This document shows positions 17,897 through 59,929 of a stretch of DNA of 64,000 bases, in pieces. Made by a program: the position numbers and the translations under genes. Below the pieces are notes generated by a model, which saw nothing but the letters and a program-made list of their open reading frames with translations, was not told the DNA's origin and did no database searches. Numbering within the stretch: position 1 is the first letter of the stretch; each line of letters starts with the position of its first letter. This stretch comes from Sipunculus nudus (Eukaryota; Annelida; Sipuncula; Golfingiida; Sipunculidae), in contig CM049309.1 of assembly GCA_026874595.1 (NCBI GenBank), forward strand, positions 21,993,033 through 22,057,032, read 5' to 3'.

Positions 17897-18785
17897 AGGT
17901 CAAAGGTCAAGGTCACTGGACTCGCATCTTAAAAGATACTGTGGATGCATTTTAAGCCAAACTTTCATCCCAGGTCTTCCATCTTGAATATATAGCTCAC
18001 TTGCCAATAGTGGATGATCCATATCAATTTTGGGGGTCACAAGGTCAAAGGTCAAGGCCACAGGAGCTATCTGTCAAAAAATTAGTTTCTGGGTGATAAT
18101 TCCTGCTTTTATTGATATATTGATTTCAAACTTGACTTGATATATGCCCCATTGAAAAAGCAAGACTCCAATTGATTTTGGGGTCATGAGGTCAAAGGTC
18201 AAGGTCACAGGACACATCTTTAAAAAGATTGTGGATGCATTTTCAGCCAAACATTTCATCTCAGACCTTTCATCCTGCACATATAGTTCATCTGCCAATA
18301 GAGGAAGACCCCTATCAATTTTGAGGTCACAAGGTAAAAGGTGAAGGTCACAGGAACCATCTGTCCAAAAATTAGTTTCTGGATGATAATTCCTGCTTTT
18401 ATTGATGTATGGATTTCAAACTTGACTTGTATATGTCCCTTTGGAAAAGCAAGACCTGAATTGTTTTTAAGGTCATGAGGTCAAAGGTCAAGGTCACAGG
18501 ACACATCTTTAAAAAGATTGTGGATGCATTTTCAGCCAAACAATTCATCTTAGATCTTTCATCTTGCACATATAGTTCACCATCCAAGAGCGGAAGACCC
18601 CTATCAATTTTGAGGTCACAAGGTCAAAGGTGAAGGTCACAGGAGCCATCTGTCCAAAAATTAGTTTCTGGATGATAATTCCTGCTTTTATTGATGTATG
18701 GATTTCAAACTTGACTTGTATATGTCCCATTGGAAAAGCAAGACCTGAATTGTTTTTAAGGTCATGAGGTCAAAGGTCAAGGTCA
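17897..18785 (+). promoter_or_regulatory. Cluster of composite AGGTCA half-site motifs (family B)
   Basis: AGGTCAAAGGTCAAGGTCA occurs exactly at 17897, 18189, 18478 and 18767. It contains two AGGTCA half-sites one base apart (a DR1 arrangement), a third half-site with no spacer, and TCAAGGTCA, the extended monomer site of the NR5A/ERR type. Whether any receptor binds is unknown; the presence of the motif is seen directly. Confidence 0.6.
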
Positions 18786-21700
18786 CAGGACATGTGGATG
18801 CATTTTCAGCAAAACATTTCATCTCAGATCTTTCATCTTGCACATATAGTTCACCTGCAAAGAGAGGAAGAACCCTATCAATTTTTAGGTAACAAGGTTA
18901 AAGGTGAAGGTCACAGGAGCCATCTGTCCAAAAATTAGTTTCTGGATGATAATTCCTGCTTTTATTGATGTATGGATTTCAAACTTGACTTGTATATTTC
19001 CCATTGGAAAAGCAAGACCCGAATTGATTTTGGGGTCATGAGGTCAAAGGTCAAGGTCTCAGGACACATCTTTAAAAAGATTAAGTTCACAGGATCAACA
19101 TCTTCAAAAAAATTGTGGATTGATAGATGGAAGAAACAATAATTGCTTGCCAAGTGTCAGTATATGCTGCTAAAAATGGGGGCCTATTCTTAAAGGGGGG
19201 GGGGGCGTACTATGTATAGCGATACTCTGGCACCTGCGGTGCTGTGAAATATCTAGTTGTAATGTAAGGTCTGGCTACTTGGAAGAAGTGACATCATATG
19301 CTTTTTTGTGGTAATACATATACCCTGTGTGAAACATATTTGTTATACAGTCAAAAGTCCTACCTCTAGAGTCATTAGTTGCTGTGATAAAGACCAAACT
19401 TAGATTAAATCCAAACCAGAGATTTAAAAAAAACGTTTGTATCAACTTTAGTTTGTTGTCAGATATCTCAATAGCATCTCAAAATCTTGCAAACATTTCT
19501 ATATGATACATACAATTAATTTCTTTTTCAGTTAGCTGTACCAATTTATGATCGTATTTATTTTTGTATTGCTTCTTGTCAGAGCCATCAGTAATCATAC
19601 TGAACCTTGCCTGAGCCATGACTATTTATTTTACTTCTTGCAGAGGCATTGGTTATCATTTCAGTACTTCTGCATCAATTCACATATGCAGCCGTATCCC
19701 ACACCTAATGAAAAGCTGCAATGAAAAACTAAAAATTACACCTTAGTTCAGTTTACCTTATTATCAAGACAATTCAGAAGTTTTTCATCATCACTTAACT
19801 GCATCAAGACATAGATAACTTATAAGACTTTTTGTGATTAAAAATATTGATATATTTTCTTTGATTTTTTATGATAAACTTAAAAACAAACATTTCTTCC
19901 AATATTAAGCCCAAATTTAATCGATGATTGATCACTTAACCATGGTCATAAGTGAATATTAACATTTCTCTCTATATAGCCAGTGCTAGTGTTAAAAGTC
20001 ACAAGTGAATGTATTAGTCAACACAAATAAATGAAGGAGGATGGATGATTCAGACGAGTGAATGCCTGTGGACTTGATAGAAAACAGCATCAGCTTTATT
20101 TGTAGTTGCAGCAGTTACTGTTGATTGGAGTGCTTGTCAGTGGGGGCTTGTTCAGTCACATCTACACTTGAGGAAAGACAGAGAGGGGTTTTTCTCATCA
20201 CTTCCTGTCTGAAATCTGTGTCACAGACACACTTATATCCCCTCAGTTACATGCACATTTGGCTGAGTTTCAAACTGCACAGGTTTTATGAAGAAGATGG
20301 AAATCGTTAGAGAAATCTCATTAATGAACCTGTGACCTGAGTGTAGTGCAACCTCCACTTCCATCAGTGATATCTTGTATACAGTCAGTCTCAAGAATAA
20401 AAAAACATACATATTAACTGTAGTCTAAAGCATGGAGATTATGTCATGTACAAAAGATAAATACAGGATAGTTCTTCTGTCTGACAAGTAATTACCAGAA
20501 TAATTTAATGGAGTAGTGCAGAATAGTACAGGTCAAATGTCAAGGGAGCTAAAGTTAGATCAATTGCTATATGTAATATGTAACACTGCCAGCATCACAT
20601 TGGTCTGTCCTCTCTCTGGTTGACAGGTTTAGCCCTTGGCTTGTGTATAGGTATATTGATTACCTGATGGATCAGAACTATTTTTTTATGCCACCTTCTG
20701 TACAAAGAAACCTAAGATTAAATTTCCATTGATTTCAGGGTCATCTTGCCTCAGTGTTTGAATTACTCATTCTCAGTGCCTAAAGATGAATCCTGTAATA
20801 TATTGACAAAAGACTTCAGTTTTGATAAATAAATATTGGGTAAATTGATTTTCAAGATTGTTCATATATTTTCAGGTCTGTAATTATGGTTACCTTATGA
20901 GTTCATTTGTCACATTTATAACCTGATGGACTGACCTATCCAGTTTTCTCATATTTAGACTAGCAGACAAAGTGAACCAGATAAACCACTAAAGGGTTAT
21001 AAAATGAAAATTGTTTCTAATATATGTGATTATTTTGACTGATACTGGCATCATTTCTTATTTTACTACCCAATATATTTAGCACTAACTTTACAGAGGA
21101 GATGTTTCCCCCTACAACACATATATTCTCAGTCATTAATTGTGTGACATATTGGGCTTGTAAACCATGATTGTCTAAGTGGAACAGTACTTGCCTACAA
21201 TAGAAGTTGAGCCATTATAAGATCAGAAGATAAGACATGGCCAACAAGAGACAGGTTGAACAGGTACAGAATAGTTTGGTTCAGTGAGAGGTTACAGTTA
21301 TGAGCCACATCACAAGACCAGTGCTGACAGGAACTCCTCAGTGGTTCTATACAGGTCCACCAAGGCAGGTCTGTACCAACATGTCTGGCATGTCTCGGTG
21401 ACAGTGTAGTTGGTGGTATTTTGACCTAATGTATGTTTCAGGTTACTGTGGTTGCCTTTTTGGGTAAGCACAAGGGTTTCAAAATTCAAGATTTTTGCAA
21501 AATGAAATTATTGCAAAGATTAACCCACTGTGAATAAAAGGCCCCATTGTCAGAGGCAAGTAAAAATCATCAGCCAATAATGAACAGTATTTTTTACTCG
21601 TTAAAAGTCACTTGGGTCCCTGTCCAATCATTGTAATTTTGTGCACATACTATCTAATATTATAAACCCATATAATTGTTGCTTTTGAGTATAATATTGT

Positions 21701-23617
21701 ATGGCATGCTTGTAAATATGGAACTACTGCAAAACAATGAAAACAGGGAAAATCATGAACTTTAACCTTCTGCATTTTCCTGGTGCAGTCAACAGTCTCT
21801 GCGAGATTGTGGAAATCTTTGTATTAATGAATGTGAACCAACACAATCTATACCTGATTGTTGATCAGAAGTTCTATTAATCAACAAATACTCATTACAT
21901 GTTGAGCTACCAAGTAATTTAAATTACAATAGATTTTCAATTCCCTGCATGCATCTTGTTTTAGCCAGTTCTATTATAAACTACATTTTCATTTTGATAA
22001 TTCATACTCGGCTTGAATGAAATTATAAATTTTAAAAAGCTCACACCATTTTATTGAGTGGTAGACTAGCTGTAGTTACTGTAGGTATTTCTTTAGGTCT
22101 GTAAGCACAGATATATATGTAGGCACTATTCTTGGAATATTAATGGGTTATCATTCTATCATTCATCGCAAAGATTTTGTCATTTGCTACTGTATGGCAA
22201 GGTGCAGGTTTCTGCAGTGTTGTTTGTATTTCCCAAATCTTGTGTATTTAGTATCTCATGACTGGCTAGGTCCTTATATAAATTGATCTTTTCATATCAT
22301 ATGCAAGTGTTATCAAGTACATTTTCTTGGTGGGAAAGACATGCATAGAGATCGCCATGGTTCAGACAAGAGGTCCACTCATTGTCTTGTTTTTTTTTTT
22401 TGTTCTAACATCAAAACAAAGATATCACATATTTTTATACTGTTTGCTACCTTTCAGAGCATATATTGTTTACAAAATTGTCTTAAAAGTATCTGAAAGT
22501 TCACTAGCCTCTATTACCAATCAATAGCCCACAATGGCAAAGAATCATTTGAATTAAAAATATATTATGGGGATTCAGATTGCCTCTAAAATTTTATGGA
22601 TTATTCCTTTTGTGTTACCCTAACCCTTCACAAAATTTCATGAGATTCTGTGCAGGACTTTTTGCATGAAGTTGCTGAATGAAATCAATACCCCTGTTTT
22701 GCCTGATTCAAATTAAATAGATAGTACTGTCCTTCTAATTTGTAAACATTGATGGAACAATCAAAGGTCTGCTACATAATAGTGCAAAGCTAGTCTATAA
22801 ACTATATATTTATTTGACTCCAGCAATCTTGTTTCTTTGCAGTTGCTTCAGTGCTTCTTGCTAGAGATTAATGTTTCATGTATCAAGTGTAAACTCAGTC
22901 ACCCGACCTGTACTCATGACAGCCTGCATGTTGTCTGGTACTGCTATTCAGTGTCACCAAATATCACAGAACCATGCACTTATTGACCAGCAATTTTCCA
23001 TGGTGGTATGACAGTTGTTTATCATATTTTTATGGTGAACAATGTAATTTAAAATAAAACCTGTAATTGTGGCCGTTAACTGTTCTACCTCATTTTCTTG
23101 TCTCTGTGATCTTTCTGTGAATATTAACAGGACTATGAGCTTCATTTCTTGTTTTTACATTTAACTGGCAAAGGAAATCTAAAGCAAGAATGATTGGGAA
23201 TCGACTCCTCTTTCATTTTTAGCTCAGCTGACTGTAAGTCATCTGAGCTATAGTCGTGGTCCTTTGTCCGTCGTCCGTCCGTTCGTCCGGCCGTCTGGCT
23301 GTTAACAGGGCACGTTTTAAAACTGTTGGACCTACGAATCCAAAACTCTGAATACCATTAGATGTCCCCAAAATCTCCTACCATACCGAAAATTGGGTCA
23401 TTAGAACTTCGTTCCTTCGAGATATTAAGGAAAAACCTCCGTTTTCCATAAAAAAGCAATTGTTACACTTCAAGTCTGCCTAATATCAAAACCACTGATC
23501 TGTTTTTGATCATATTTAGTATTCATATTCTTCCATATATTTTCTGTGCACATACCAAAAATTAGGTCAGTATTGGGTATTATTTTGAAGTTATAGGCCC
23601 AAATATAATGCAATTTT

Positions 23618-26188
23618 TAGCTCAGCTGACTATAAGTCATCTGAGCTATAGTCGTGGTCCATTGTCCGTCGTCCGTCCGTCTGTCCGTCCGTCCGTCCGT
23701 AGATGTGGCACGTTTTGAAACCGTAAGACCTAGGAATCCAAAATTCGGCATAATGTTAGATGTCCCCAAGATCTCCTACCAAGCCAAAAACTGGGTGTTT
23801 GCAACTTCGTTCCTTTGAGAAATTAAGGAACACACTTCAGGACTGTCTAATATCAAAACCACTCATCTGTTTTACCTCATATTTACCATAAAAATATTCC
23901 TCTATATAGTTCCTATGTACATGCCAGAAATTATGTCTGTATTATTTAATTTAAAAAAGTTATGGGCCCAAACATAATGCATTTTGTAAAAAATCAGAAA
24001 AGATATTTGATCACTTAACACAAAAAATGTTAATGCTATGGACCTTTTTTCCAGTAATATAACTTTAATTAATCAAAATTAAATTGTATACCCAAAATTA
24101 GATGAAAATCTTTTAAATTTTTTAAAATATTAATAAAAATAAAAAATTGGTACCTTAAATTTTGCCCAACTTTGACCATGGCACGTTTTTTTCCTGTAAG
24201 TACTGTGGATTTAATTTTCACAGCATGTTTTTGTTAGCATTTCAACTGTTAACACAAAAAATTTGAAACCAGTTGATCAAAAACTGTAGATTTTAATCAA
24301 GTTTTCAAGCACCATGTAACATATTGTTTACATCAAGCTAGTGTTATGCAGTTTGCAAGAGCTCAGCTCCCCAGCTTCAGCTCTAAGTTCCTTAAATTCG
24401 GCATACAGTTAGATGTCTCCAAAATGCCAAGAATTTGGTCACTAGGACATTCGAGATATTAATGAAAAACTTCATTTTTCCATTAAAAACCCATTGTTAC
24501 ACTTCAAGACTGCCTAATATCAAAAAACCACTGATCTGACTTTAATCATAAATAATATACATATTTTTCATTCTCTATGCACATGCCAGAATGATGTCAG
24601 TATTGTGTAATTGTTTTAAGTTATGGGCCCAAACATAATGCACTTTGTAAAAAATCAAGAAATATATTTACTCCCTTAACAAGAGCATTGCTGAAGCTAG
24701 AGATTTTTTTGTCAGGGATGTAACATTATTTAATCAAGATTCAATTGAATACCCAAAATTAGTTCTGAATTTTTCAAATTTTATTTAGTATAAATATAAA
24801 ATTAGTACCTTAAATTTTGCCCAACTGTGACCATGGCACGTTTGTTTCCCGTGAGCACTGTTGATATAATTTTCATATCATGCACACATAAGCATTTCAG
24901 CTTTTTAGTTTAGAAAGCTAAAAAGAAATTGGCAAAAAAATTGTAGCTTTTATTAATGTTTTTTATGAGACCCTGTCAGACTTTGGCTCTCTCCAGCCCC
25001 TCTTGAGTCACCTGTATGTTGACCTTGTTGACCTTTCATCAAATTATGCACGCTTGAGGCGAGGCATACATGGAATCAAGGCAGCTAATGGCAAGCCACA
25101 GTTGATCCAGGTGTCCAACCCAACTCATCTAGTAGTTTTAACCAAGAACATAACAAAAAAAAATAAATTAATAAATTTTTATTGGTTTTTAATAACAAAT
25201 TAAAGAAAAATAGAAAAGGAATTTGTTAGTTTATAATAACAGGAAATTAACTTGCAGTTACTGATGATATAAGAATCTTGTATCGATGGGTAGAATGTCA
25301 CATATTCCAAATAACACCATGCAGTCACCTTTGGCATTTTTCAGTTCAATTTTAATGATAAAGAAGTAAATCATATTATTCATTATTAATCATTAGGGAT
25401 CATATGAAGGAAATTAGACAAAGATGCAGTTGATAATATTAATCTAGATTCCTGCTGTGTCTAGTGTGTACAATGATGTGAAATTAGTCCAAAATGAATT
25501 TTTTACAGTTATTTTTTAATATAAATAAAAGCCATAAAACCAGGTACTTATGATCATTATTTAAATGAGTGAATTTTGTATATTCTGGATTCTCAACATC
25601 ATTGTTTGGTGAAAACTGAATAAATTCCAGACATGGTGCAAATACTTTGTAATTGTATTTAAATACGAATATGATTTTGTACTCCATTATAAAATTTCTT
25701 GCATAAAGAATGGGAATTCAGGTAAAAATGAAAATATATGAATACTCGTGCAAATACTTTCAAAATGTATTCATGAATGCATTCATGAATATATTCTTTA
25801 ATATTATTTTAATAATCATATCAGTTATATTTCATTTTAAAAAATCATATGATTCTCTTATTATTTTTAATAAAAATTATATTTGGGACAATATTTGTAT
25901 TTTTTTTAATAAATAGTTAAACTCTTATATTATATGTTCTGCTTATAAGTTATATGGCCAAGTCAAAATCTGTGTGACAATAGTACTCCATTTGTTAATA
26001 AAATAAATGAAATCAATCCTCTTCCCTGTCTCCAAAGGTACTATCAAAATCATACATAAGCTAAACAACAACAACTCATAATACAGCTTATATTTATTAC
26101 CACACAAAACCAGCATGTGCCTCATTTCTAAATAATATTTTTTTATCATATATAACAGCTGAGCGTCGTGACCCATAGGTCCCTTGTT
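23618..26188 (+). mobile_element. Inner family A element (AT-rich interior)
   Basis: Full-length copy: 5' hairpin, TCCGTCGTCCGTCCGTC microsatellite, AT-rich interior, and 3' end with CAGCTGAGCG, GACCCATAGGTC and CTTGTT. Closest in sequence to the copy at 39166-41793 (both share the stretch around TTGTTTACATYAAGCTAG). An internal segment at 24967-25150 is richer in GC and open for about 60 codons, listed separately. Confidence 0.88.
24967..25203 (+). pseudogene. Coding-like segment inside family A (unknown)
   Basis: A local GC-richer block within the AT-rich interior reads ETLSDFGSLQPLLSHLYVDL and on through VDLSSNYARLRRG to a stop at about 25203. The same block occurs at 34384, 40570 and 43731; the 40570 copy keeps the frame, while the 34384 and 43731 copies share a one-base loss that breaks it. 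I do not recognise the protein. It might be a remnant of a captured exon or simply a conserved non-coding block. Confidence 0.25.
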
Positions 26189-26529
26189 TAAAAATCAGGA
26201 AATATATTTGCTCACTTAACATGAGAATTGCTGAAGCTGAAGACTTTTTTTCAGGAATATAACTTTATTTAATCAAGATTAAATTGTTTACCCAAAATTA
26301 GATCTGAATTTTGCAAATTTTTCAAGTTATTAGCATAAATAAAAAATTAATACCTTAAATTTTGTCCAACTTTGGCAGTGGCACGTTTTTTCCCTGTAAG
26401 CACTGTTGATTTAATTTTCACAGCATATATACATAAGGATTTAATCTTTTAAAATCTGAAATTTCAAAGAAATTGTTTGAAAAGAGTAGCTTTTATTCAA
26501 GTTTTCATACACCATGTCAAGTGTTGTTT

Positions 26530-27676
26530 ATATCTGGCCCACCTAGTAGTACAGCCTTCACTTGCATTATGTAACCCACCAAGGCAGCTTGCCTTGAACC
26601 AGCTTGGCCACTACTAGCAGGCTTCTCCTCTGCCCTGCACTCAACCCCCCCCCCCCCCCCCCAGCTGTTGCATAAACTAGATAAATTTTATAATTTTCTG
26701 TATTTTATTTTATTCTTGGACATGCTACATTTTAGATTTTGGATTGTACCACCAGGGTTACAGTGATTAAAGTGCACATTTAATTGTGTCCACAAAGTGA
26801 TGTATTGCTATGAAAGTATGGATGTTCATCAGATAAGTAATGCTTTACTTCAGAAGAGTAAAACTTCACCAGGTGTGAAATTGACTATTAATTCCAGTTA
26901 TTAATTATAGCTTAGATTGTAATTAGCATAATGATATTGTTTGTCCCTCATTCAACCAACAGTGTGTATACTTTATTTAAAAGATGTTTTTATTTTATCA
27001 AATTTACTGAATCTTTTATTTTATTTCGGTGAATAAAATTAAGCTTGTCCTGAAAACTCCAATGTGCAAAACTTTTAAATAGGAATTCAAGGAATAATTT
27101 TGTAGATGCCATGTTGTGGCATTATTTTCTTTTACATTCAGTTTAAACATTTGATTTAAAAATAATAAAATATATGTGTATGCATAATATGACCCAATGT
27201 GAGCTACACTCTGGATATATAATGATTGCAACTTAGAATTCTAATATTTTAACTTATATTTTCACTTTTATATTACAAATTTATAACACTTGTAAATAAA
27301 AAAAATGAATCAGATAAAAACTATTAATGAAAAAAGTGGATATGCTAAAAAAATAGGCTTGTATATAAACTTAAATGCATTATTCCTTTGAAAGTGAAAT
27401 GAAGGTATTAGTCCATTCTGTCCACTTGCCTGTCCATCTGTAAATTTTTCATATGCATCACAGTATCTCAAAACTTTTACTGTTTTTCGTCATGACAGTC
27501 TTGTCAGAGTATTAGTCAATCATATATTGAGAACTTTACTATAACCAAGTAGGAGGACCCTTTCCTCTTAGCTTCTCATATGCTTATATAAATATAAAAC
27601 ATTACAATAGAATATTTTTCATATTTTGCATTTGCAAAAATTTCAAACTTTTGTCATGACCCATGGGTCCTTTGTT
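26530..27676. other. Unassigned stretch ending in a family A terminus
   Basis: Replaces the segment that other family A copies have here. It includes the poly-C tract and AT-rich sequence without recognisable 5' end, and finishes in ATGACCCATGGGTCCTTTGTT. Best read as the 3' part of a third, diverged family A-type insertion with unclear left boundary. Confidence 0.4.
26643..26662. repeat. Poly-C tract
   Basis: An uninterrupted run of about 18-20 C within the rearranged part of the outer family A element. Confidence 0.8.
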
Positions 27677-30602
27677 TATATTCTGGATTCTCCACATCAT
27701 TGTTTGGCTAAAACTGAATAAATACCAGACATGGTGCAAATACTTTGCAAATGTATATGAATATGAATATGAATATGTACTCCATTATAAAATTTCTTGC
27801 ATAAGAATGGGAATTCAGGTAAAAATGAAAGTACTTGATACCAGTGCAAATACTTTCAAAATGTATTCATGAATGCATATATTCTATAATATTATTTTAA
27901 TAATTAGTTCAGTTATATTTTATTAAAAAAAAAATCATATGATTCTCTTATTATTTTTAATAAATATTATATTGGCACAACATTTGTTATTAAATTTTAA
28001 TAAATAGTTGAACTCTTTTATTTTATGTGCTGCTTATAAGTTATATGGCCAGGTCAAAATCTGTGTGACAATAGCACTCCATTTGTTAATAAAATAAATG
28101 AAATCAATCCTCTTCCCTGTCTCCAAAAATACTGTCAAATCATACATAAGCTAAACACCAACAACTCATAATAAAGCTTATATTTATTACCACACAAAAC
28201 CAGCATATGCCTCTTTCCCAAATCATATTTTTTATCATATATAACAGCTGAGCGACGTGACCCATGGGTCCCTTGTTCCTTACTTGTCAGCATAGAATAT
28301 CAATATCTTACAAGTAATTATAACAGAAGAGTATTTTCTTATTTTCTATGTCACTACCTTACTGTGTGACTTTTTTAATGCACACTGAACATTTAACACA
28401 GGCCTGCCAATTTTCATAACATGATATCATACAAGGATTAACAGATTAACTCAGGATTTAGACAGATCAATCTCTCTTGCATATTAAAAATCTGAATCAC
28501 TCTAATACTCTAATGCAGTTTATCATATGATCATATCTGTATATGCTTTTATGTAATGTGTGGATCTTTTATTCATATTTCACCATTCTGTAACCCCATG
28601 TAACATGGATGTACACATGGTTTACTGAGCCTTTGAAGTTTTGCAGTCTGTGTACTGACCTGTCAAGTGAATTTTGAATTGCTTTGAAGTGAATGTATCA
28701 CAATTTGTCAGTTGAGAAGACAGCTAATATGCTCAAGTGCCATATGTCAATTCTAAATTATCAAATTTAGAAAGGAGATGAAAGACCTTGATCTGACATA
28801 AAAAGGAATAATTTCTCCTCATGGTTGCCAGCCTGGATCTAATCTACTTAAATAATACCTTGCGGCACTTGAGCTTAAATGGAAAGTAATCTTGGATTAG
28901 TGAAGGCAGGAAACCAAATCCAAGTTTATAGTTGGCTTCAATATTTTTCACAGCTACAGCAAAGTTAATATGTGAATGAGTAGCATTAGAATTACCAGGT
29001 TGTGGTATTTCTTCAGTCATATAATTCAGACTGCCAAAGGAGGGTCCACCTGGCATATATGTATTACAACATGGTATTTATTTCCAACCCATTAATGCCT
29101 TCTCTAAGAGCTGTAGCTACACAGGCTCAAATGTGTCTGCCAAAGCTCTGCTTGTAAATCATACATTATGCAGGCCCACCGGCATGTTGCCAGATTAATA
29201 TTCCAACAATGAGCCAGGTTAAGTATACCTCTAAACCATGGTCTTACAGGAGTATCTTTGCTCACTGAAGTGTGTTACTTGTGTACATATCAACTTGTAA
29301 TTCCTCCAGTGTTCTTAATATAGGACTTGTAAATCCGTGGTCCCAGGCTTATTAGTTATTAGAACTCTTTATTGCTACATATATAATATTTCTGAGTGAC
29401 TTTTCCATGCTATTGTTCTTAACATTGTGTTAATTAACCACAGGCAGCTTACATTATTTAAGAAAACTTTTGTATGACAGAAGCAGAGTTATGATGATCC
29501 ACACACCCTCAGCCCCCCTTTCAGGCTTTTAATCAGATGTGACCGTTGCAGCTGAAAATGGTCCATGCTGATGTCAGCTTCCTTTCTTAGGGTCATTATC
29601 TTCTCCATGTGGAGTACTGGGTGTTTGTGATTTTATGGGACATGCCTGAATTCTGAACAGAAACTGAAAGTGTTTTCTGCCACTCTGGTTTGGTCAGAAT
29701 AAAATTTGTTGTTAAAGTTCATGTGGAAGACATGTTCCCAAGACCAGCATGTTGGGACAGGAATTTACTTCCAGTTATTGAGGTGTACAGTAAACAGTCA
29801 TTAACTGTATATATATGAGTGCACGGTGATATAAATGACCCTATGGGTATGTACAGACGTTACTCTGAGTGACCACTGGTCTATAAAGTTTATAACAGGT
29901 GTCTGCTAATGATACCACTATATTGCTGAGCTTCAGGACATTTGGTGACATGTTCAGTACAGGAAGACTAGGACATGGTTGCCATCATAAAAATGACATA
30001 TGATTTTATGGAATATACATTCTTGAATTGAATATACAAAAAGTGGGAAATTCCAGTATAATTGGATTTGATATAACTGTGAGGTCTTCAATGATGCAGT
30101 TTCCATTGTACTTCCTTTACTTGAACCAGGTAGGGTGTGTTATATCATCCATGAGAGAACATTTACATAATTATGAATCACTAAATTCAGTAATGTTATA
30201 TAATACATTACATCACAGCTGACATATTGAAAGTAAACTTCTTTGAACAAGTGTTTCCGTGAATATAACTTTGTCAGTGCATTATCAGGTATGTACAGGG
30301 TTGTTCCAAAGCAGTTCATAGATTACTAAAATTTGCTACCTCTGTTTATTTCTGACATGTTTGAATATGTTTCTGCATTAAACTAGTCCATGATATAATA
30401 TTAAGTATTAATCTTGTTGTCTCTCCAGTTAAAGCAGCATTTATAACAGTTTGATTTCCAGCCAGATGATGTCAGTTTGATAATATGACAGGAATGGCTG
30501 ACATTGCAGATACTTTGTTTTGTGGTCAGTTATCAGTAAATAATATATCATAGATGGGATAAAGGTTAGGTTTATTATAACAAAGATTTGTGATCATTTC
30601 AG

Positions 30603-36288: not shown

Positions 36289-38334
36289 TGTATCCCCAGA
36301 CAAAGTCGGGATACTATGGTTTCACGACGGTCCCGCCGTCGCCGCCGCAGAAAAACCTTGTGAGCGGGATAACTCAAAAAATATTTCACTGATCTTTTTC
36401 AAACTTTACATTTGTATACATATAGGTAAGGGGACGAAGCCTATTTAAAATGGGGTCATGACCTATGCTAGGAGAGTGACCTTGACCTTGAATAGGTCCA
36501 TTTTTGCTGAAAATAACACAAATTCTTTAATATCTCAAGTAAGCTTGCATGGACTGGTCCAAAAATCAAGGTGACCGAAGATTTTGGATAGCCTTGTGAT
36601 ATACCGGAAACTGGTGGAGCCACCTATTATCCTTTTCTTGTTTTTTGCGCCTTTTAATACCCCCATAATTGCCACTTAACAGTACTGTAAGCATTATAAG
36701 TCAAAAACTAATGGACAGATTTCTTTCATATTATGCACATGTAGAGAGATAGGTTATGGGATGAGGTCTATTTACATTTGAGTCATGACCTTTACCATGA
36801 GAGTGTCCTTGACCTTTAATGTGTCCATATTTGGTGAAAATCACACACCTCTTATGATATCTCCAGTGTTGATAGCCATATGGATTTCAAACGTGACTTA
36901 TGTATGGCCCACCACTAAAGTAAGAACCCTATAGGTTCTAGGGTCATGAGGTCAAAGGTCAAGGTCACTGGACTCGCATCTTAAAAGATACTGTGGATGC
37001 ATTTTAAGCCATGCATTTTAAGCCAAACTTTCATCCCAGGTCTTCCATCTTGAATATATAGCTCACTTGCCAATAGTGGATGATCCATATCAATTTTGGG
37101 GTCACAAGGTCAAAGGTCAAGGCCACAGGAGCTATCTGTCCAAAAATTAGTTTCTGGATGATAATTCCTGCTTTTATTGATGTATTGATTTCAAACTTGA
37201 CTTATATATGTCCCATTGAAAAAGCAAGACTCCAATAGATTTTGGGGTCATGAGGTCAAAGGTCAAGGTCACAGGACACATCTTTAAAAAGGTATTGGAT
37301 GCATTTTCAGCTAAACATTTCATCTCAGACCTTTCATCTTGCACATATAGTTCATCTGCCAATAGAAGAAGACCCCTATCAATTTTGAGGTCACAAGGTC
37401 AAAGGTGAAGGTCACAGGAGCCATCTGTCCAAAAATTAGTTTCTGGATGATAATTCCTTCTTTTATTGATGTATGGATTTCAAACTTGACTTGTATATGA
37501 CCCATTGGAAAAGCAAGACCCGAATTGATTTTGGGGTTATGAGGTCAAAGGTCAAGGTCACAGGACACATCTTTAAAAAGATTGTGGATGCATTTTCAGC
37601 CAAACAATTCATCTCAGATTTTCATCTTGCACATATATTTCACCTGCCAAGAGTGGAAAACCTCTATCAATTTTGAGGTCACAAGGTCAAAGGTGAAGGT
37701 CACAGGAGCCGTCTGTCCAAAAATTAGTTTCTGGATGATAATTCCTGCTTTTATTGATGTATGGATTTCCAACTTGACTTGTATATGACCCAATGGAAAA
37801 GCAAGACCCGAATTGATTTCGGGGTGATGAGGTTAAAGTTCAAGGTCACAGGACACATCTTTAAAAAAGATGTGGACGCATTTTCAGCCAAACATTTCAT
37901 CTCCGATCTTTCATCTTGCACATATAGTTCACCTGCCAAGAGAGGAAGAACCCTATCAATTTTGAAGTCACAAGATTAAAGGTGAAGGTCACAGGAGCCA
38001 TCTGTCCAAAAATTAGTTTCTGGATAATAATTCCTGCTTTTATTGATGTATAGATTTCAAACTTGACTTGTATATGACCCATTGAAAAGCAAGACCCGAA
38101 TTGATTTTGGGGTCATGAGGTCAAAGGTCAAGGTTACAGGACACATCTTTAAAAAGATAAAGGTCACAGGACCAACATCTTCAAAAAGATTGTGGATTGA
38201 TAGATGGAAGAAACAATATTTGCTTGCCAAGTGTCAGTATATGCTGCTAAAAATAGGGGCCTATTCTTAAGGGGGGGGGGGGGCTACTATGTCTGGGGAT
38301 ACTCTGGCACCTGCGGTGCCAAGAAATGTCTAGT
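36289..38334 (+). mobile_element. Complete family B element (reference copy)
   Basis: Starts TTGTATCCCCAGACAAAGTC, has a CCGCCGTCGCCGCC tract, several ~289-bp internal units, a G run at about 38271-38283, the inverted 5' motif TGTCTGGGGATAC at 38290-38302, the hairpin GGCACC-tgc-GGTGCC at about 38306-38320, then AAGAAATG and CTAGT. No protein-coding frame of transposase type, so non-autonomous. AGGTCAAAGGTCAAGGTCA occurs exactly at 36949, 37253 and 37542. The layout matches non-autonomous Helentrons. Confidence 0.88.
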
Positions 38335-39060
38335 TACTCAACTGTCTTTCTGTTTGTTTTTTTATTGTGATTATACTCAATTCTTCTACTGCACATCACT
38401 CATTCCTGTTCTGCTGAGTATTGCTCTATTAATTGCTCTTCTGTCTATGTCTATGTCTGATATATGTGTCCCTCTTGACTGATCTATTAATTCCTCCACT
38501 GCTGAGTCCTCTCCTGCTGATCCATTAATTCCTCTAATACTAAATATATAAGTTCCTCTAGTGCTGATCCATTAATGCCTCTAGTGCTGATCTATAATTC
38601 CTCTACTGCTGGTCTATTATTTCCGCTACTCCTGATCTACCAGTCTCTCTACTGCTGATCTATTAATTCCTCTACTGCTAATCTATTAATTTTATTACTG
38701 CTGATTCCTTTAATGGTGATCAGTCATTCCTCTAATGCTGATCTGTTAATTTTTCTTCTGCTGATTAATCAATTCCTCTACTGCTGATCTATTAATTCCA
38801 CTTTTGCTGATTACTCCACTGCTGATCTATCAACTCCTCTACTGATAACATTTTGTTTTATTGCTCATCTAGTCAGCCCTCTACAGCTGATGGTATTCTT
38901 CTTTTCTTCTGACCTACTCATTCTTCTCTATTTGATCTTATCATTTTCTTCCATTGATCCTCTCATTCTCCGGTACTGATAATCTTCTCACAAAGTACTG
39001 GGTGCTGATGATCTTCTCCTCCTTGATTTACTGATTCTTTACTGATCTTCTCATAGGGCT
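38335..39060. repeat. CT-rich ~24-bp minisatellite, main piece
   Basis: Many degenerate units of the form CTGATCTATTAATTCCTCTA followed by CTG, clearest between 38490 and 38850. Flanked on the left by a family B element and on the right by a family A element, both apparently inserted into the same array. Confidence 0.85.
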
Positions 39061-42313: not shown

Positions 42314-44938
42314 TAGCTCAGCTGACTATAAGTCATCTGAGCTATAGTCGTGGTCCATTGTCCGTCGTCCGTCCGTCTGTCCGTCCGTCCGTCCGTCCGT
42401 CCGTCCGTCCGTCCGTAGATGTGGCACGTTTTGAAACCGTAAGACCTAGGAATCCGAAATTCAGCATACTGTTAGATGTCCCTAGGATCTCCTACCAAGC
42501 CGAAAACTGGGTCTTTGCGACTTCATTCCTTTGAGAAATTAAGGAAAAACCTCAATTTTTTATTAAAAACCTATTTTCACACTTCAGGACTGCCTAATAT
42601 CAAAACCACTCATCTGTTTTTCCTCATATTTCCTATAAATAATCCTCTATATAATTCCTATGTACATGCCAGAAATTAGGTCTGTATTTTATAATTTAAA
42701 AAAGTTATGGGCCCAAACATAATGCATTTTGTAAATAATCAGGAAAGAAATTTTATCACTTAACACAAAACTTGTTAAAGCTAAGCACTTTTTTTCCAGT
42801 AATATTACTTTTATTAATCAAAATTAAATTGTATACCCAAAATGAGATCAAAATCTTTTAAATTTTTTGAAATGTTAGCAAAAATAAAAATTTGGTACCT
42901 TAAATTTTGCCCAACTTTGACCATGGCACGTTTTTTTGCTGTAACTGCTGTGGATTTAATTTTCACAGCATGTTTTTGTTAGCATTTCAACTGTTAACAC
43001 CAAAAATTTGAAACCAGTTGATCAAAAACTGTAGATTTTATTCAGGTTTTCAAGCACCATGTCACATATTGCTAGTGTTATGCAGTTTGCTAGAGCTCAG
43101 CTCCCGAGCTTCAGCTCTAAGTTCCTTAAATTTGGCATACAGTTAGATTTCTCCAAAATCCCCTACCATGCCAAGAATTTGGTCACTAGGACTTAATTCC
43201 TTCGAGATATCAATGAAAAACTTAATTTTTCCATTAAAAACCCAATGTTACACTTTAAGACTGCCTAATATCAAAACCACTGATCTGACTTTGATCATAT
43301 ATAATATACATATTTTTCTATACATTCACTATGCACATGCCAGAAATGATGTCAGTATTGTGTATTTTTTTTTAAGTTATGGGCCCAAACATAATGCACT
43401 TTGTAAAAAATCAAGAAATATATTTACTCCCTTAACAAGGGCATTGCTGAAGCTAGAGATCTTTTTTGTCAGGGATGTAACATTATTTAATCAAGATTCA
43501 ATTGAATACCCAAAATAAGTTCTGAATTTTCAAATTTTATAAGTTATTAGTATAAATATAAAATTAGTACCTTAAATTTTGCCCAACTGTGACCATGGCA
43601 CGTTTGTTTCCCGTGAGCACTGTTGATATAATTTTCATATCATGCACACATAAGGATTTCAGCTTTTTAGTTTAGAAAGCTGAAAGAAATTTGCCAAATA
43701 TTGTAGCTTTTATTAATGTTTTTTATGAGACCCTGTCAGACTTTGGCTCTCTCCAGCCCCTCTTGAGTCACCTGTATGTTGACCTTGTTGACCTTTCATC
43801 AAATTATGCACGCTTGAGGGGAGAATCCAGGCAGCTGATGGCCAGCCACAGTTGATCCAGGTGTTCAACCCAACTCATCTAGTAGTTTTAACCAACAACA
43901 TAACAATAAACAATAAATTAATAAATTTTTATTGGTTTTTAATAACAAATTAAAGAAAAATAGAAAAGGAATTTGTTAGTTTATAATAACAGGAAATTAA
44001 CTTGCAGTTACTGATGATATAAGAATCTTGTATCGATGGGTAGAATGTCACATATTCCAAATAACACCATGCAGTCACCTATGGCATTTTTCAGTTCATT
44101 TTTAATGATAAAGAAGTAAATCATATTATTCATTACTAATCATTAAGGATTATATGAAGGAAATTAATGATAGACAAAGTTGATAATATTAATCTAGACT
44201 CCTACTGTGTCTAGTGTGTACATTGATGTGAAATTAGTCCAAAATGAATTTTTTACAGTTATTTTTTAATATAAATAAAAGCCATAAAACCAGATACTTA
44301 TGATCATTATTTAAATTTGTGAATTTTGTATATTCTGGATTCTCAACATCATTGTTTGGTGAAAACTGAATAAATACCAGACATGGTGCGAATACTTTGT
44401 AATTGTATTTAAATACGAATATGATTATGTACTCCATTATAAAATTTCTTGCATAAAGAATGGGAATTCCGGTAAAAATGAAAGTATATGAATACTCGTG
44501 CAAATACTTTCAAAATGTATTCATGAATGCATTCATGAATATATTCTTTAATATTATTTTAATGATCATATCAATTATATTTCATTTTAAAAAATCATAT
44601 GATTCTCTTATTATTTTTAATAAAAATTATATTTGGGACAATATTTGTAATTTTTTTAATAAATAGTTAAACTCTTATATTATATGTTCTGCTTATAAGT
44701 TATATGGCCAAGTCAAAATCTGTGTGACAGTAGTACTCCATTTGTTAATAAAATAAATGAAATCAATCCTCTTCCCTGTCTCCAAAGGTACTATCAAAAT
44801 CATACATAAGCTAAACAACAACAACTCATAATACAGCTTATATTTATTACCACACAAAACCAGCATGTGCCTCATTTCTAAATAATATTTTTTTATCATA
44901 TATAACAGCTGAGCGTCGTGACCCATAGGTCCCTTGTT
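42314..44938 (+). mobile_element. Family A element (AT-rich interior, long microsatellite)
   Basis: Full-length copy with the longest (GTCC)n tract of the set, roughly 42361-42416. Right end GACCCATAGGTCCCTTGTT. Shares with 32974-35585 the frame-breaking base loss in the coding-like block and other small differences. Confidence 0.9.
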
Positions 44939-51253: not shown

Positions 51254-51346
51254 GTGAGTAGGCCTACCTATACAGAAATATTATACATGACCAAGAAAGG
51301 CAGGAGGGATGGTGAGTAGGCCTACCTATACAGAAATATTATGCAA
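51231..51346. repeat. 58-bp tandem duplication across exon 5 donor
   Basis: The block starting GACCAAGAAAGGCAGGAGGG at 51231 and running through the GTGAGT donor and the next ~35 intron bases is repeated at 51289 with at most one mismatch in the overlap. The copied part includes the last 23 bp of the exon and the splice donor. Confidence 0.95.
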
Positions 51347-52879: not shown

Positions 52880-55800
52880 TTGTATCCCCAGACAAAGTCG
52901 GGGGATACTATGTTTTCATACAGGTCCTGCCGCTGCCACCGATGCCGCATATAAATCTTGTTGGCGCGATAACCCAAAAAATATTTCACGGAACTTTGCC
53001 AAACTTGGTATATTTATAGATACGGGTAAGAGGACGACGCCTATTTAAAATGAGGTCATGACCTTAACGAGGAGAGTGTCCTTGACCTTGAATAGGTCCA
53101 ATTTTGGGGTAAATCACACAAATTCTTTAATATCTCAAGAAATCTTGCATGGATTTATCCCAAAATTAAGTTGATGGAAGATCATGGATAGGGTTGTCAT
53201 GTTCCAGAAACTGGTGGCGCCACCTATTATTCTTTACTTGTTTTCGTGCCGTTTAATACCCCCAAAATTGCCACCTTACAGTGCTGTGAGCATTATATGT
53301 CAAAAACTAATGGACAGATTTCTTTTATATTATGCATATACATAGGTATGGGTTATGGGATGATGTTTATTGTATCCCCAGACAAAGTCGGGGGATACTA
53401 TGTTTTCATACCGGTCCCGCCGCCGCCGCCGCCGCATATAAATCTTGTTGGCGCGATAACCCAAAAAATATTTCACGGACCTTTACCAAACTTGGTATAT
53501 GTATAGATATGGGTAAGAGGACGACGCCTATTTAAAATGAGGTTATGACCTTTACTAGGAGAGTGTCCTTGACCTTGAATAGGTCCAATTTTGGGGAAAA
53601 CCACACAAATTCTTTAATATCTCAAGAAATCTTGCATGGATTTATCCCAAAATCAAGTTGATGGAAGATCATGGATAGGGTTGTCATGTTCTCAGAAACT
53701 GGTGGCGCCACCTATTATTCTTTACTTGTTTTCATGCCATTTAATCCCCCCAAAATTGCCATCTTACAGTACTGTGAGCATTATAAGTCAAAAACTTATG
53801 GACAGATTTCTTTCATATTGTGCATATACATAGATATGGGTTATGGGATGATGTTTATTTAAATTGGGGTCATGACCTTTCCTATGAGAGTGGCCTTGAC
53901 CTTGAATATTGCCATATATGGTGAAAATCACACACCTCTTATGATATCTCCAGTGTTGATAGCCATATGGATTTCAAACATGACTTATGTATGGCCCAGC
54001 ACTAAAGTAAGAACCCTATAGGTTCTAGGGTCATGAGGTTACAGGTCAAGGTCACTGGACTGGCATCTTAAAAGATACTGTGGATACATTTTAAGCCAAA
54101 CTATCATCCCAGGTCTTCCATCTTGAATATATAGCTCACTTGCCAATAGTGGATGATCCATATCAATTTTAGGGTCACAAGGCCAAAGGTCAAGGCCACA
54201 GGAGCTATCTGTCCAAAAATTAGTTTCTGGATGATAATTCCTGCTTTTATTGATGTATTGATTTCAAACTTGACTTATATATGTCCCATTGAAAAAGCAA
54301 GACTCCAATTGATTTTGGGGTCATGCGGTCAAAGGTCAAGGTCACAGGACACATCTTTAAAAAGATTGTGGATGCATTTTCAGCCAAACATTTCATCTGA
54401 GACCTTTTATCATGCACATAGAGTTCATCTGCCAATAGAGGAAGACCCCTATCAATTTTGAGGTCACCAGGTTAAAGGTGAAGGTCACAGGAGCCATCTG
54501 TCCAAAAATTAGTTTCTGGATGATAATTCCTTCTTTTATTGATGTAAGTATTTCAAACTTGACTTGTATTTGACCCATTGGAAAAGCAGGACCCGAATTG
54601 ATTTTGGGGCATGAGGTCAAAGGTCAAGTTCACAGGAAACATCTTTAAAAAGATTGTGGATGCATTATCAGCCAAACAATTCATCTCAGATCTTTCATCT
54701 TGCACATATAGTTCACCTGCCAAGAGTGGAAGACCGCTATCAATTTTGAGGTCACAAGGTCTAAGGTGAAGGTCACAGGAGCCATCTGTCCAAAAATTAG
54801 TTTCTGGATGATAATTCCTTCTTTAATTGATGTATGGATTTCAAACTTGACTTGTATTTGACCCATTGGAAAACCAAGACCCGAATTGATTTTGGGGTCA
54901 TGAGGTCAAAGGTCAAGGTCACAGGACAAATCTTTAAAAAGATGTGGATGCATTTTCAGCCAAACAATTCATCTCAGATCTTTCATCTTGCACATATAGT
55001 TCACCTGCCAAGAGAGGAAGAACCCTTTCAATTTTGAGGTCACTAGGTCAAAGGTGAAGGTCACAGGAGCCATCTGTCCAAAAATTAGTTTCTGGATGAT
55101 AATTCCTTCTTTTATGGATGTATGGATTTCAAACTTGACTTGTATTTGACCCATTGGAAAAGCAAGACCAGAATTGATTTTGGGGTCATAAGGTCAAAGG
55201 TCAAGGTTAAAGGAAACCTCTTTAAAAAGATTGTGGATGCATTTTCAGCCAAACAATTCATCTCAGATCTTTCATCTTGCCCATATAGTTCACCTGCCAA
55301 GAGTGGAAGACCCCTATCAATTTTGAGGTCACAAGGTCAAAGGTTAAGGTCACAGGAGCCATCTGTCCAAAAATTTGTTTCTGGATGATAATTCCTGCTT
55401 TTATTGATGTATGGATTTCAAACTTGACTTGTATATGTTCCATTGGAAAAGCAAGACCCAAATTGACTTTGGGGTCATGAGGTCAAAGGTCAATGTCACA
55501 GGACACATCTTTAAAAAGATGTGGATGCATTTTCAGCCAAACAATTCATCTCAGATCTTTCTTCTTGCACATCTAGTTCACCTACCAAGAGAGGAAGAAC
55601 CCTATCAAATTTGAGGTCACTAGGTCAAAGGTGAAGGTCACAGGAGCCATCTGTCCAAAAATTAGTTTCTGGATGATAATTCCTGCTTTATTGATGTATA
55701 GATTTCAAACTTGACTTGTATATGTCCCATTGGAAAAGCAAGACCCGAATTGATTTTTAGGTCACGAATTCAAAGGTCAAGGTCACAGGACACATCTTTA

Positions 55801-55985
55801 AAAAGATCAAGGTCACAGGACCAACATCTTCAACAAGATTGTGGATTGATAGATGGAAGAAACAATAAATATGCCAAGTGTCAGTATATGCTGCTAAAAA
55901 TGGGGGCCTATTCTTAAAGGGGGGGGGGGGGGGGCTACTATGTCTGGGGATACTCTGGCACCTGCGGTGCCAAGAAATGTCTAGT
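52880..55985 (+). mobile_element. Family B element with duplicated 5' end
   Basis: The 5' end TTGTATCCCCAGACAAAGTC occurs at 52880 and again at 53370, 490 bp later; the first copy runs to ATGATGTTTAT and is then directly followed by the second start. After that the element continues through ~289-bp units (exact composite motif at 54903), a long G run at 55918-55934, hairpin GGCACC-tgc-GGTGCC and CTAGTT. Both 5' copies keep GGTGGCGCCACC, at 53213 and near 53700. No coding capacity. Confidence 0.85.
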
Positions 55986-56099
55986 TTTATTCACATTTCT
56001 TTTCTAAACTGGCATAAAAATTTATATAACAAGCAATCCACTTACAACAAAGTGTTCTTCATGTAACATAAGTAGAGCAATAGAATTTGCATGTTTTTT

Positions 56100-56106
56100 T
56101 TTACAT

Positions 56107-56140
<34 letters not shown>

Positions 56141-56405
56141 GTCAAGTTTAGGATTGTAATCTCGGCTGGACAGATCTAAGATCTGTCCAGCCCAGATTGT
56201 GATCCTGAAGCAAGAAAGACAGGATCGCAATCTGGCCGGACTAAACTGCGATCACAATCTGGGCTGGACAGATCTAAGATCTGGCCAGCCTGGATTGCGA
56301 TTGCAATTTGGGCCGGTCTGAACTGCGATCGCAGTTTAGGCTGGACAGATCTAAGATCCGTCCAGATCGCAATCTGGGCCTTGGCATATATATATATATA
56401 TATAC
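56100..56405. repeat. Palindrome cluster between TA microsatellites
   Basis: Between TA tracts at about 56105-56140 and 56386-56402 lie three related palindromic blocks. The first is perfect: GGCTGGACAGATCT (56164-56177), one base, AGATCTGTCCAGCC (56179-56192). Two diverged forms follow at about 56262 and 56340. Intervening words such as GATCGCAATCTGG and the 16-bp palindrome AACTGCGATCGCAGTT repeat in both orientations. Confidence 0.85.
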
Positions 56406-57494
56406 AGGGTTTTCACACCCCTAAATATTGGCTGGTAAACATCATTTTCCCACAGAGAAAGCATCTGGAAATTCCAACGAAAGTTACTGTATTTTAGCCT
56501 AGTAATTTGCCTAGTGGGCCTACATATGATACAATTGTTTACGTAAAGCATGGCAGACTGTCACATAAATTTGAGGAAAAGTACGCCCTGGTTCATGCGT
56601 GCCCTTTGGTCTACTTCTGCAGATTGCAACATCACATATAAGTGTTTTTAAAGGCGTTATTTCCCAAAATTCTGCAGTTAAAAATACCCAGCTCAGAGAT
56701 CCAATAGGGTTGGAGCCAGCACCTTGCAGACTGTAGCACTTTTGTCTGATATTGATATATCTCTTCAGCAAATAACAGGTGACGTTAGACTGCATAATTC
56801 GAAAGGAATGTCACTACACAGGTAACCTCTATTGGTCCTTTGATTTGACCTGGTCAGCCAAGTACTCTTTTTGGATCCCTTTGGGATATATGCGTTTGGT
56901 TGGGTACCTTGCCACGGCATTTGAGCCAGTGGATATATTAACTAGAACACAACGGTCAAGCAAGCCAAGTGAAGGTCATGGCTGTATGTATGTTACACCT
57001 GCGTTTTTCATGATTCTTTTGTGGTTTTAAACAAGAGAATCTCTGTGAAAACACAATGCATCACCTCACAAGTCCACAGATCATCAGTGAATATCAGTTT
57101 GAAACATCGCATTATTAGTATTTACTTTATATGTGTACTGAAAATGTTGTGCTGACAGTGTTGTCCAAAATTTCAAATTCTATATGATGTTAGTTGACAA
57201 CCTGCCACAATTTTGGATGATGGATGGCTTTCAGCTGCAGGTTTTGCTTCTTGTCCTTTGCAGGGCTCTGTTTGGTGCTATATTTAGAAATTTGGTAAAC
57301 CAGTAGAAATTCTGGAGATGATGTCAGTGTATATTTAAAGCAGTGGATTTGGCAGGGCTTGTTGCTTGTTAAAAGTCCAATTGCATATACCCAAAAAAAG
57401 AGACCCCAAGAAACTTTTCTTTGGACTTTACTTTTACAAGAATTGTCTACACTTTTGGAGGGAGTGTCCCCCCTCCTACACCAATCCCCAATTT

Positions 57495-59929
57495 TAGCTC
57501 AGCTGACTTTCAGTCATGCTGGGCTATAGAGATGGGTCTTTGTCCGGCGTCCTTCCGTCTGTCCGTCCGGCCGGCCGTCCGTCCTGCAGTCCGGCCGGCC
57601 GGCCGGCCGTTAGCAGGGCACAAATCGTAACCGTAGGGGCTTGGGCCATGAACCCTATGCAGTCTTAGAGGTTATAAAAAGATCTCCTTGCAAACCTGAA
57701 ATTAGGTCACTGTGACCTATATTCTCGAAGTTATGGGGTGTGTTTGCACCCCCCAGAAATAACTCTTTGAGACAAAATTTTCATCCCAAACCTTCCATCT
57801 TTCACATACAGCTCACCTACCAACAGGGGAAGGACCATAATTTTTTTTAGGTCAAAAGGTCAAAGGTCAAGGTCACAGGAGCCTCTTCTTTGAAAAGCCT
57901 GTGGATGCATTTTAAGCCAACCCTTTCATCCCAATTCTTTGATCTTTCACATATAGCTCACATACTAAGTTGGAGAAGAATCCTATAGATTTTGAGGTCA
58001 TTAGGTCAAAGGTCAGGGTCACAGGATCCACTTCTTTGAAAAGGTAGTGGACACATTTCAAGCTAGACTATTCATTCCAAACCTTCCAGCACTGATATCG
58101 CTTCTCTGCCAACAGGGGAAAAGACCTGTTGATTTTGAGGTCAAAGGTCAAGTTCACAGCACCCACTTCTTGTGTGGAGCCATTTTCAGGCAAACTTTTC
58201 AATCTGTACCTTCCATTTGTCATATATAGCTTATCTACCAGTACGGGAAGAAGCCTATTGATGTTGAGGTCAAAAAGTCAAAGGTCAAGGTCACAATTTT
58301 TAATTGTTCTAAATGCTTGTGAGCATATTTCAAGTGTAACTGTTCAACCCAAACCTTCAGTCTTTCACATATGCCACATCTATGCATCACTCAGTTTGAC
58401 TCAAACTTCATATATATGGGTCTTTTTGCTTGAATAAATAAGTTATTGATTTTGGGGTCAGCTGGTCAGCAGGTTAATGGTTGCAGGTCAAAGTTATTCA
58501 CCCATTGGTTGCCAAGTAATTACACCAGATTTAAGTGGTCAGTAGTTACAAATCATTTAGAAAGAATCCAGTTGATATATGGGCAAAAGGCCAAGGTCAT
58601 AGGTCAGGGATGTTCACAATTACTTATTTTATAGACCATCTCTATTTTTCTTGTATATATAACCATCCCACTCCAGCTGGTACATCTCCCACTGGTGACA
58701 TATGACTCCTTTTTGTATCAGCCTATTAAGTGATAAGGCTCAGTGATAAGTACCTCGTTACTTCATAACAAAAACACTGTTGTCAGAATGCTTCAGCAAG
58801 GCATTAAGACTATGAGAGTATAGTATTAAGGTTTAGCTACTGATTTATAAGATGATGGGAACATTTTGCAGTTTATTTTATGGAATCCTAGCAATAAACT
58901 TAGTTTCCTAGATATCTGAATATTTTAATATATATCACCACATATAAAAGCAAGTGTTTGTTCTCATAATATGTGGATGTGTACCTTGATTTAGGATGGC
59001 TTTTTGTTTTATTTCAAGACTCTTAGTCATGCTTTCTGCATTTCTTTTCTTTCAGGTTTGGCAGTTTACCTACCCTGCTGACCCCATTGAAAAGCAGAGT
59101 GATAATAAAAAATATTGGACTTACACTTTTTACAATTGCATATCTATAAATCTGATATGAGGGCCTGGACATGCCTTTTGAATTATTTTGGGCATTTATT
59201 ACTGGATAATTTGCCCCAAGTTTGGTCTCTTATTGGAGAATGTGGGCTATCAAATGTCATACTTGTCAGAAATCCATTATGTCTGCCAGTTAGCCACCTT
59301 AGAAATTCTTACTTCAGGGCAGTTTCAGTAATTTTTCTTTAATGTTTGGTCCGATTTAGAGAATGTTTGTTGTCTGATTTCAGACTTGTCAGAAGTCCAA
59401 TATGGCCACCAGGCAACCATCTTTTAATTCCTTTTGATCATATTATCTCAAAAACAGTTAAAGTGAATGCAGTTGGATGTATATTTATGTAATCTTGTAA
59501 AGGATTGGGTCAAATATTTCTGAGTAAATATTACCATCATTTATAAAAGTGCAGTACAGTTGGCCTGTATTGAATAAAAATTCATACAGAAGCACCTGTT
59601 TCTCAATAATTCTTGCATGTATTTCCTTGATTTTTGCTATATAGTTTGATCTTATATTTGCCCTTTGTGGTGTTCCTTTTGAGACTGACAGGTTTCAAGC
59701 AAGCTGTTGGAATAGTTCCTGATAGCTTAACAATCATGCATTTTCCTCAGACCATCAATTCACTGTGTTTTAACCAGACATAGGTGATATATATTTTTGT
59801 TGTCATAGAAAATTTTCAACAAATTGGCAAATTGGTTCTTCAAAATTTGACTGGAAGTTGTGAATCTCAGTCCATGATGTCACAGGTCATGCTTGGCAGC
59901 TGAGCGTCATGACCCATGGGTCACTTGTT
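57495..59929 (+). mobile_element. Family A-type element with family B-like interior
   Basis: Left end TAGCTCAGCTGACTTTCAG, a GTCCGTCC/GGCC-rich microsatellite at about 57540-57610, right end CAGCTGAGCGTCATGACCC-ATGGGTCACTTGTT. The interior differs from other A copies: it has AGGTCAAAGGTCAAGGTCA at 57857 and degenerate units with GGATGCATTTTAAGCCA-like sequence similar to family B. It is the most diverged A copy. No coding frame. Confidence 0.82.

Follow-up and report, generated by a model that had tools for sequence, protein, structure and literature searches.

Helentron-type elements and box arrays in the window

The window, that is, the whole 64-kb stretch of DNA analysed here, contains a 34-codon PDZ-domain exon of a ZO-1-like gene (63346..63447, + strand), the best match of which is the tight junction protein ZO-1 (E 7.1e-6), in agreement with the junction gene proposed by the first-pass annotation. 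At the end of this exon, a 49-bp unit is repeated 3.1 times with a 100% match (63441-63591), each unit including GTAAG, TTTCAG, and GTGAGC, such that splice-site-like sequence is duplicated. A Pfam search with 10 of the 49 open reading frames of at least 85 amino acids in the window returned no domain above the cut-off.

Repeated elements on the + strand were assigned to three families of HINEs (non-autonomous Helentron-type elements), namely A, B, and C, all of which display subterminal inverted repeats (subTIRs), a microsatellite, central tandem repeats, and a 3' palindrome. The element ends were taken by reading the sequence; fuzzy end searches missed true sites (for instance both ends of B2 and the right end of B1), and their lists are incomplete. 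Family B is ordered as TATCCCCAGACA, its partial complement, a CCG-rich tract, the left flank, the array, TGTCTGGGGATA, GGCACCTGCGGTGCC, and CTAGTT, whereas AGCTCAGCTGACT and a GTCC tract open the elements of families A and C, and the palindrome TGACCCATGGGTCA and CTTGTT close them. The subTIR feature accordingly consists of TATCCCCAGACA, an inverted repeat (IR), and TGTCTGGGGATA in family B, and of AGCTCAGCTGA, an IR, and CAGCTGAGC in families A and C; in each case the palindrome (GGCACCTGCGGTGCC or TGACCCATGGGTCA, respectively) follows the 3' subTIR, and the left-flank microsatellite (GTCC or CCG tracts) is followed by the central repeats (~146/336 bp).

Family B is represented by the 5'-truncated B1 (301..790, start approximate), in which the left end is absent while the right end retains the subTIR, palindrome, and CTAGTT, with boxes (described below) at 429 and 574; by B2 (13818..19258), which carries nine boxes between 17897 and 19059 and is split by a nested family A element; by the complete B3 (36289..38335), in which the subTIR TATCCCCAGACA with its IR, the CCG-rich microsatellite, the array, the 3' subTIR TGTCTGGGGATA, the palindrome GGCACCTGCGGTGCC, and CTAGTT can all be followed, the left flank including the ends amounting to ~600 bp; and by the complete B4 (53373..55986), with 13 boxes, directly upstream of which a 3'-truncated family B left flank (52883..53372) lies head-to-tail. 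The family A element within B2 (14178..17594) comprises the AGCTCAGCTGACT left end, a GTCC microsatellite, 336-bp repeats, and the TGACCCATGGGTCA palindrome, without a box. This single nested insertion, compared with the uninterrupted B3 and B4, occupies a T-run site with no clear target duplication. The family C element (57494..59929) has the AGCTCAGCTGACT left end, a GTCC/CCGG microsatellite, ~146-bp repeats, the palindrome TGACCCATGGGTCA at 59910, and CTTGTT. Short repeats of alternating GATCTAAGATCTGGCC-type sequence were also observed at 56158-56365.

The box, AGGTCA-A-AGGTCA-AGGTCA-C, was rightly parsed by the first-pass annotation as a DR1 with a spacerless third half-site and TCAAGGTCA. 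All ten exact positions that it had listed (574, 17897, 18189, 18478, 18767, 36949, 37253, 37542, 54903, and 57857) were recovered, all on the + strand and with no further exact copies in the window, although the range that it assigned to the feature, 17897..57875, leaves out its own site at 574. One hundred dinucleotide shuffles of the window gave an expectation of 0 exact copies, and 37 sites with up to three mismatches were found in the 64 kb as against 0.08 expected. All 37 fall within five arrays on the + strand, at ~429-592 (two sites, 145 bp apart), 17897-19059 (nine sites), 36949-38136 in the centre of B3 (nine sites; period ~146, dimer 289), 54036-55785 (13 sites), and 57857-58293 in the centre of the family C element (four sites, the three intervening spacers being 63-68% alike). 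That these tandem arrays sit within HINEs is, in our judgement, nearly certain.

Every monomer of the window arrays carries a box, at a spacing of 128-158 bp with no unit missing, and RGGTCA stands two bases upstream of the box in 31 of the 37 units. The TRF periods of four of the five arrays are 289, 289, 288, and 146. The 289-bp recurrence reported previously therefore stands as a period of the three long family B arrays but not as their unit: 289 bp is a dimer, because each monomer has its box and the variants AGGTCAAAGGTCAAGGTCA and AGGTCAAAGGTGAAGGTCA, with C or G at position 12, mostly alternate along the arrays. Microsatellite slippage as the sole cause of the boxes is disfavoured by the invariant register of the core in the window arrays.

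Two HINE-like families in the window appear to do without the box. Family D copies (23221-28260, 32975-35570, 39167-41780, and 42315-44925) have the AGCTCAGCTGACT left end, a GTCC tract, and repeats ~672 bp apart, with parts that are 95-99% identical. AGGTCA was not clearly enriched in family A (3 vs 1.5 expected) or in the family D copy tested, 39167-41790 (3 vs 0.8 expected), and because of these two families we regard the box as optional; as a requirement for HINE movement it is ruled out by the same families, taken together with the 95-99% identity between parts of the D copies.

Abundance in the genome and recurrence in other assemblies

The exact 19-mer box occurs 22,468 times in the 1.43-Gb assembly (1,426,538,692 bases; 11,219 and 11,249 copies on the two strands), and the reversed control was found 0 times; with the shuffle expectation at ~0 as well, a chance origin of the box is ruled out. 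From the genome total, ~1.0 exact copy would be expected per 64 kb, compared with the ten in the window. Across the window, 20 genome regions, and three loci of other assemblies (L002, L003, and L007), 202 boxes with up to two mismatches were collected, the flanks of which resolve into two large spacer classes (families B and C), a family E, small clusters, single cases, and the foreign loci. The 20 regions are the first listed matches on one contig and hence a non-random sample; when six 5-kb pieces from predetermined positions of the same contig were examined, one contained boxes. Family E has a different left end and, in L019, a period of 1.26-1.34 kb. A second segment, CCTATTGTTTTTGG, is retained beside the box in most family E repeats (L016, L019-L021, L028, L033, and L034). 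In L036 (C1:1405000-1413900), family B arrays lie within a larger tandem of ~2.8-2.9 kb, a pattern suggestive of joint amplification of the left flank and the array.

A scan of genome contigs for the box matched six contigs. L002 and L003, from a Bacteroidetes bin, have HINE-like ends and the box in ~147-bp arrays, and L007, from a Bathymodiolus brooksi symbiont assembly, has HINE-like ends and the box in two repeats 158 bp apart, its orientation (read by eye) being opposite to the left-to-right order of the element. From this anatomy, we infer that all three are animal (host) DNA within bacterial assemblies. Their spacers scored hardly above shuffles against the window spacers (z of at most 2.5 in 24/24 comparisons); as the loci were selected by the exact box, they demonstrate recurrence of the box amid unrelated spacers rather than its frequency, and box-less families could not appear among them. 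We attribute the matches in L004 and L005 to chance in bacterial DNA and regard that in L006 as unclear; the conservation counts exclude these three contigs. In viral contigs, a 23-mer search gave no match, and the single GC-rich contig matching the 19-mer was taken as chance.

AGGTCA ranks first (with some ties) or second among hexamers in box-bearing pieces, and it shares the first rank in the left flank of family B, which is not tandem (5 vs 0.24 expected). Outside the elements in the window it is also above the base-composition expectation (38 vs 14.4; the control word ACTGGA, 31). The inverted arrangement IR3 has the estrogen-response-type spacing. Perfect IR3 sites of the form AGGTCANNNTGACCT number 13,608 genome-wide against 93 for the reversed control, with varied spacers among the sites listed, whereas IR4 yielded 131 sites against 171; one perfect IR3, AGGTCACTGTGACCT, lies within the family C element, in its left flank (57704..57718, no strand assigned). 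In an analysis of seven unit classes (56 units) that omitted two 6-mismatch boxes, one in L002 and one in L003, the DR1 + DR0 core, with AGGTCA half-sites in receptor-type spacing, was the majority sequence, with one half-site altered in classes B_B (AGGTGA) and B_B0 (AGGCCA) and a tie within the core for the two mussel-record units of L007.

Conservation of the box relative to its spacers

Comparison of the four type consensuses of family B and the four window units of family C gives an identity of 93% in the box and 55% in the remainder, and the box shares the top rank among 19-column windows. Since the two dimer spacers M and X are ~60% identical, and the family C spacers are 63-68% identical to one another and 65-75% to M, much of the spacer divergence, in our reading, predates the copies now present. 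The larger sample, comprising the window and the 20 regions, provided 281 ungapped candidate boxes: 58 A-type, 48 B-type, and 175 that fitted neither and were left out. Deviations in the A-type units amounted to 22/1098 in the box against 176/3014 upstream and 292/3494 downstream (2.0% vs 5.8% and 8.4%; p=3e-13), and in the B-type units to 14/909 against 136/2492 and 118/3107 (1.5% vs 5.5% and 3.8%; p=4e-6). The small window classes gave 2/57 in the box vs 15/381 elsewhere (A0) and 1/57 vs 3/380 (B0). The single family C array showed 3/76 in the box vs 91/489 elsewhere, a contrast that we read as divergence predating insertion, although no date can be set from a single copy. These comparisons give good support for the box having been conserved as the element lineage evolved.

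Private mutations, by comparison, fall on box and spacers nearly equally. Among the A- and B-type units of the window (27 of 37), 12/513 were counted in the box and 72/3264 in the spacers (p=0.87), and the larger, overlapping sample of A-type units had singletons at 1.09% in the box vs 1.06% and 1.14% on either side (p=1). When units were gathered by spacer words, a collection in which the words are themselves conserved, true units were missed, and the lists are incomplete, the box differed at 2.8% and the words at 2.6% (39 units), or at 3.3% and 3.2% (43/44 units). The first-pass annotation had proposed as a refutation that the motif decays at the rate of the rest of the unit and is closed, methylated, and unbound in all tissues. 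As regards a function for the host, the private mutations largely bear out the first part of this, apart from the B-type singletons of the larger sample, which are borderline depleted in the box (6/909 vs 85/5599, p=0.046). In view of these singletons and of the family C array, the box may be under weak constraint in single insertions.

These figures bear directly on the suggestion that the arrays act on the ZO-1-like gene as receptor-responsive enhancers or decoys. The arrays do lie upstream of its exon on the same strand, and their boxes are composed of textbook half-sites; other repeats furnish precedents, as far as the available texts describe them, in the functional Helitron-borne heat shock elements of Caenorhabditis (PMC6927752) and the DR2 retinoic acid elements of Alu (PMC1785376). 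Against this, singletons are as frequent in the motif as elsewhere in the window, exact copies of the box abound across the genome, and of the family B copies one is truncated and another interrupted, which leaves the enhancer or decoy suggestion without support for this gene and, in our estimation, highly improbable. The alternative raised in the same annotation, that the motif serves the element itself, fits better with the strong depletion of old shared variation in the motif and the recurrence of the box among unrelated spacers.

The combination of few deviations and ordinary singleton numbers would be left by selection on the element lineage followed by near-neutral drift, and equally by an old, slowly changing segment. 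The box could accordingly be the segment that changes most slowly in an old, satellite-like monomer of HINEs, passively inherited with no DNA-binding protein involved, its conservation then being a product of conversion, of recombination at a short junction rich in repeats, or of the way in which the monomers were amplified; we hold this to be a serious contender, albeit with a probability appreciably below one half. In oyster HINEs, too, the repeats at the centre resemble satellites, and the BIV160/Cg170 monomers, as the accessible part of the report describes, contain two conserved segments with a loose, statistically unsupported clustering of junctions close to them (PMC5139131). Unrelated spacers likewise meet at the box within one array (L002, 1911 vs 2210), private mutations are about equally frequent in the box and its spacers, and the box is itself built of AGGTCA units. 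What speaks against passive inheritance is that the spacings are continuous and no window unit has gained or lost a core half-site, unlike in a microsatellite (outside the window, the box search was ungapped, and L036 shows two 281-bp gaps where a unit went unrecognised), and that AGGTCA enrichment extends beyond the tandem repeats into the family B left flank and into the precise IR3, but not IR4, arrangement.

Candidate receptors, proposed role, and known systems

The receptor DNA-binding domain (zinc finger) was matched by 67 exons in the genome, twelve of which were translated, and the four domains that were searched found their best PDB matches in HNF4, RXR, NR5A2, and COUP-TF1; the host thus encodes receptors of the kinds named by the first-pass annotation (HNF4, RXR, NR5A, and COUP-TF). 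Another of the translated domains presumably resembles TR2/4. DR1 sites are preferred by HNF4, RXR, COUP-TF, or TR2/4, and TNAAGGTCA by NR5A or ERR. A receptor as the reason for the conservation of the box is plausible.

The explanation that we favour, with a confidence of about one half, is that the element lineage has retained the box as a cis module, most likely because host nuclear receptors that bind AGGTCA act on it. The boxes would have been spread by transposition of the elements and tandem amplification of the ~146-bp monomers, AGGTCA-A-AGGTCA-AGGTCA-C being kept as the element lineage evolved while the spacers diverged; after insertion, the box would drift in individual copies about as the spacers do. 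Host receptors (HNF4, RXR, COUP-TF, or TR2/4 on the DR1; NR5A or ERR on TNAAGGTCA) would bind the box where the element mobilises, and an element so bound would be rendered accessible, transcribed, or recombination-prone. Receptor binding, its benefit to the element, and the cell type concerned are what we infer here. A wider proposal, which we consider rather doubtful, is that Helentron-type elements of several marine animals independently kept the same composite receptor site as a cis module that serves their spread. The genome would in this way have been sown with tens of thousands of candidate sites, both direct and IR3, that might be recruited as hormone-responsive switches.

Receptor binding might instead aid the amplification or recombination of the monomers, in that receptors on tandem half-sites would bring copies together, a mechanism already proposed for the binding of orphan receptors to variant telomere repeats. 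The monomers are indeed in tandem, with larger blocks as well in L036, the box contains a directly abutting (DR0) pair of half-sites, and orphan receptors are implicated in ALT (PMC11194075, PMC7691514). The box-less HINE-like families, on the other hand, also have tandem repeats, and the title of one of these papers argues for an indirect role of NR2F2 (PMC7691514), such that we deem this explanation improbable. According to the available portions of these papers, the (TCAGGG)n variants of ALT cells resemble the present arrays in having tandem half-sites within repeats, bound there by NR2C/F orphan receptors, and differ in being telomeric, of a 6-bp unit, and not transposon-borne (PMC11194075, PMC7691514). 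In the open-access literature, as far as its text was available, no paper was found in which AGGTCA boxes are connected to the satellite or Helentron repeats of molluscs.

Should receptors bind the box as a cis module of the element, it would constitute a further case, beside the Caenorhabditis heat shock elements, of rolling-circle elements that retain a host-factor site for their own benefit and spread it genome-wide. Alu, for its part, is a retroelement. It too spreads AGGTCA-type direct repeats through a genome, in the form of DR2 retinoic acid response elements as partially available text describes them, but the geometry here is DR1 with an abutting third half-site, in tandem, in a Helentron-type DNA element (PMC1785376). 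In Caenorhabditis, Helitrons have similarly spread clustered motifs of one host factor, and the authors speculate, in the part of the paper at hand, that the motif first served the element; the factor is a different one, and binding and induction were measured there, whereas the box is known here from its sequence alone (PMC6927752). The DINE-1-like elements of Drosophila miranda offer a Helentron-type example, having spread a site for the male-specific-lethal complex, although that is a dosage compensation complex and the site was co-opted by the host; the HINE/DINE-1 anatomy given in the available text agrees with families A, B, and C (PMC4067079).

The closest structural counterpart is Cg_HINE of Crassostrea gigas, the substructures of which, as described in the accessible text, agree with families A, B, and C (PMC7492417). 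Cg_HINE and the related pearl elements share the subTIR with IR, the microsatellite (GTCC-type in families A and C), the short array of satellite-like repeats (140-180 bp), the 3' subTIR, and the palindrome, and the insertion sites of Cg_HINE are oligo-T without target duplication (PMC7492417). Compared by description rather than by repeat sequence, they differ in that two conserved segments are reported and no receptor-type box is named in the available text, and the term "transcription factor" is absent from the main text of the paper (PMC7492417). If receptors bind the box, this would suggest why the satellite-like repeats of HINEs keep a conserved segment, for which the oyster work, in its accessible part, gives the segment without a named function.
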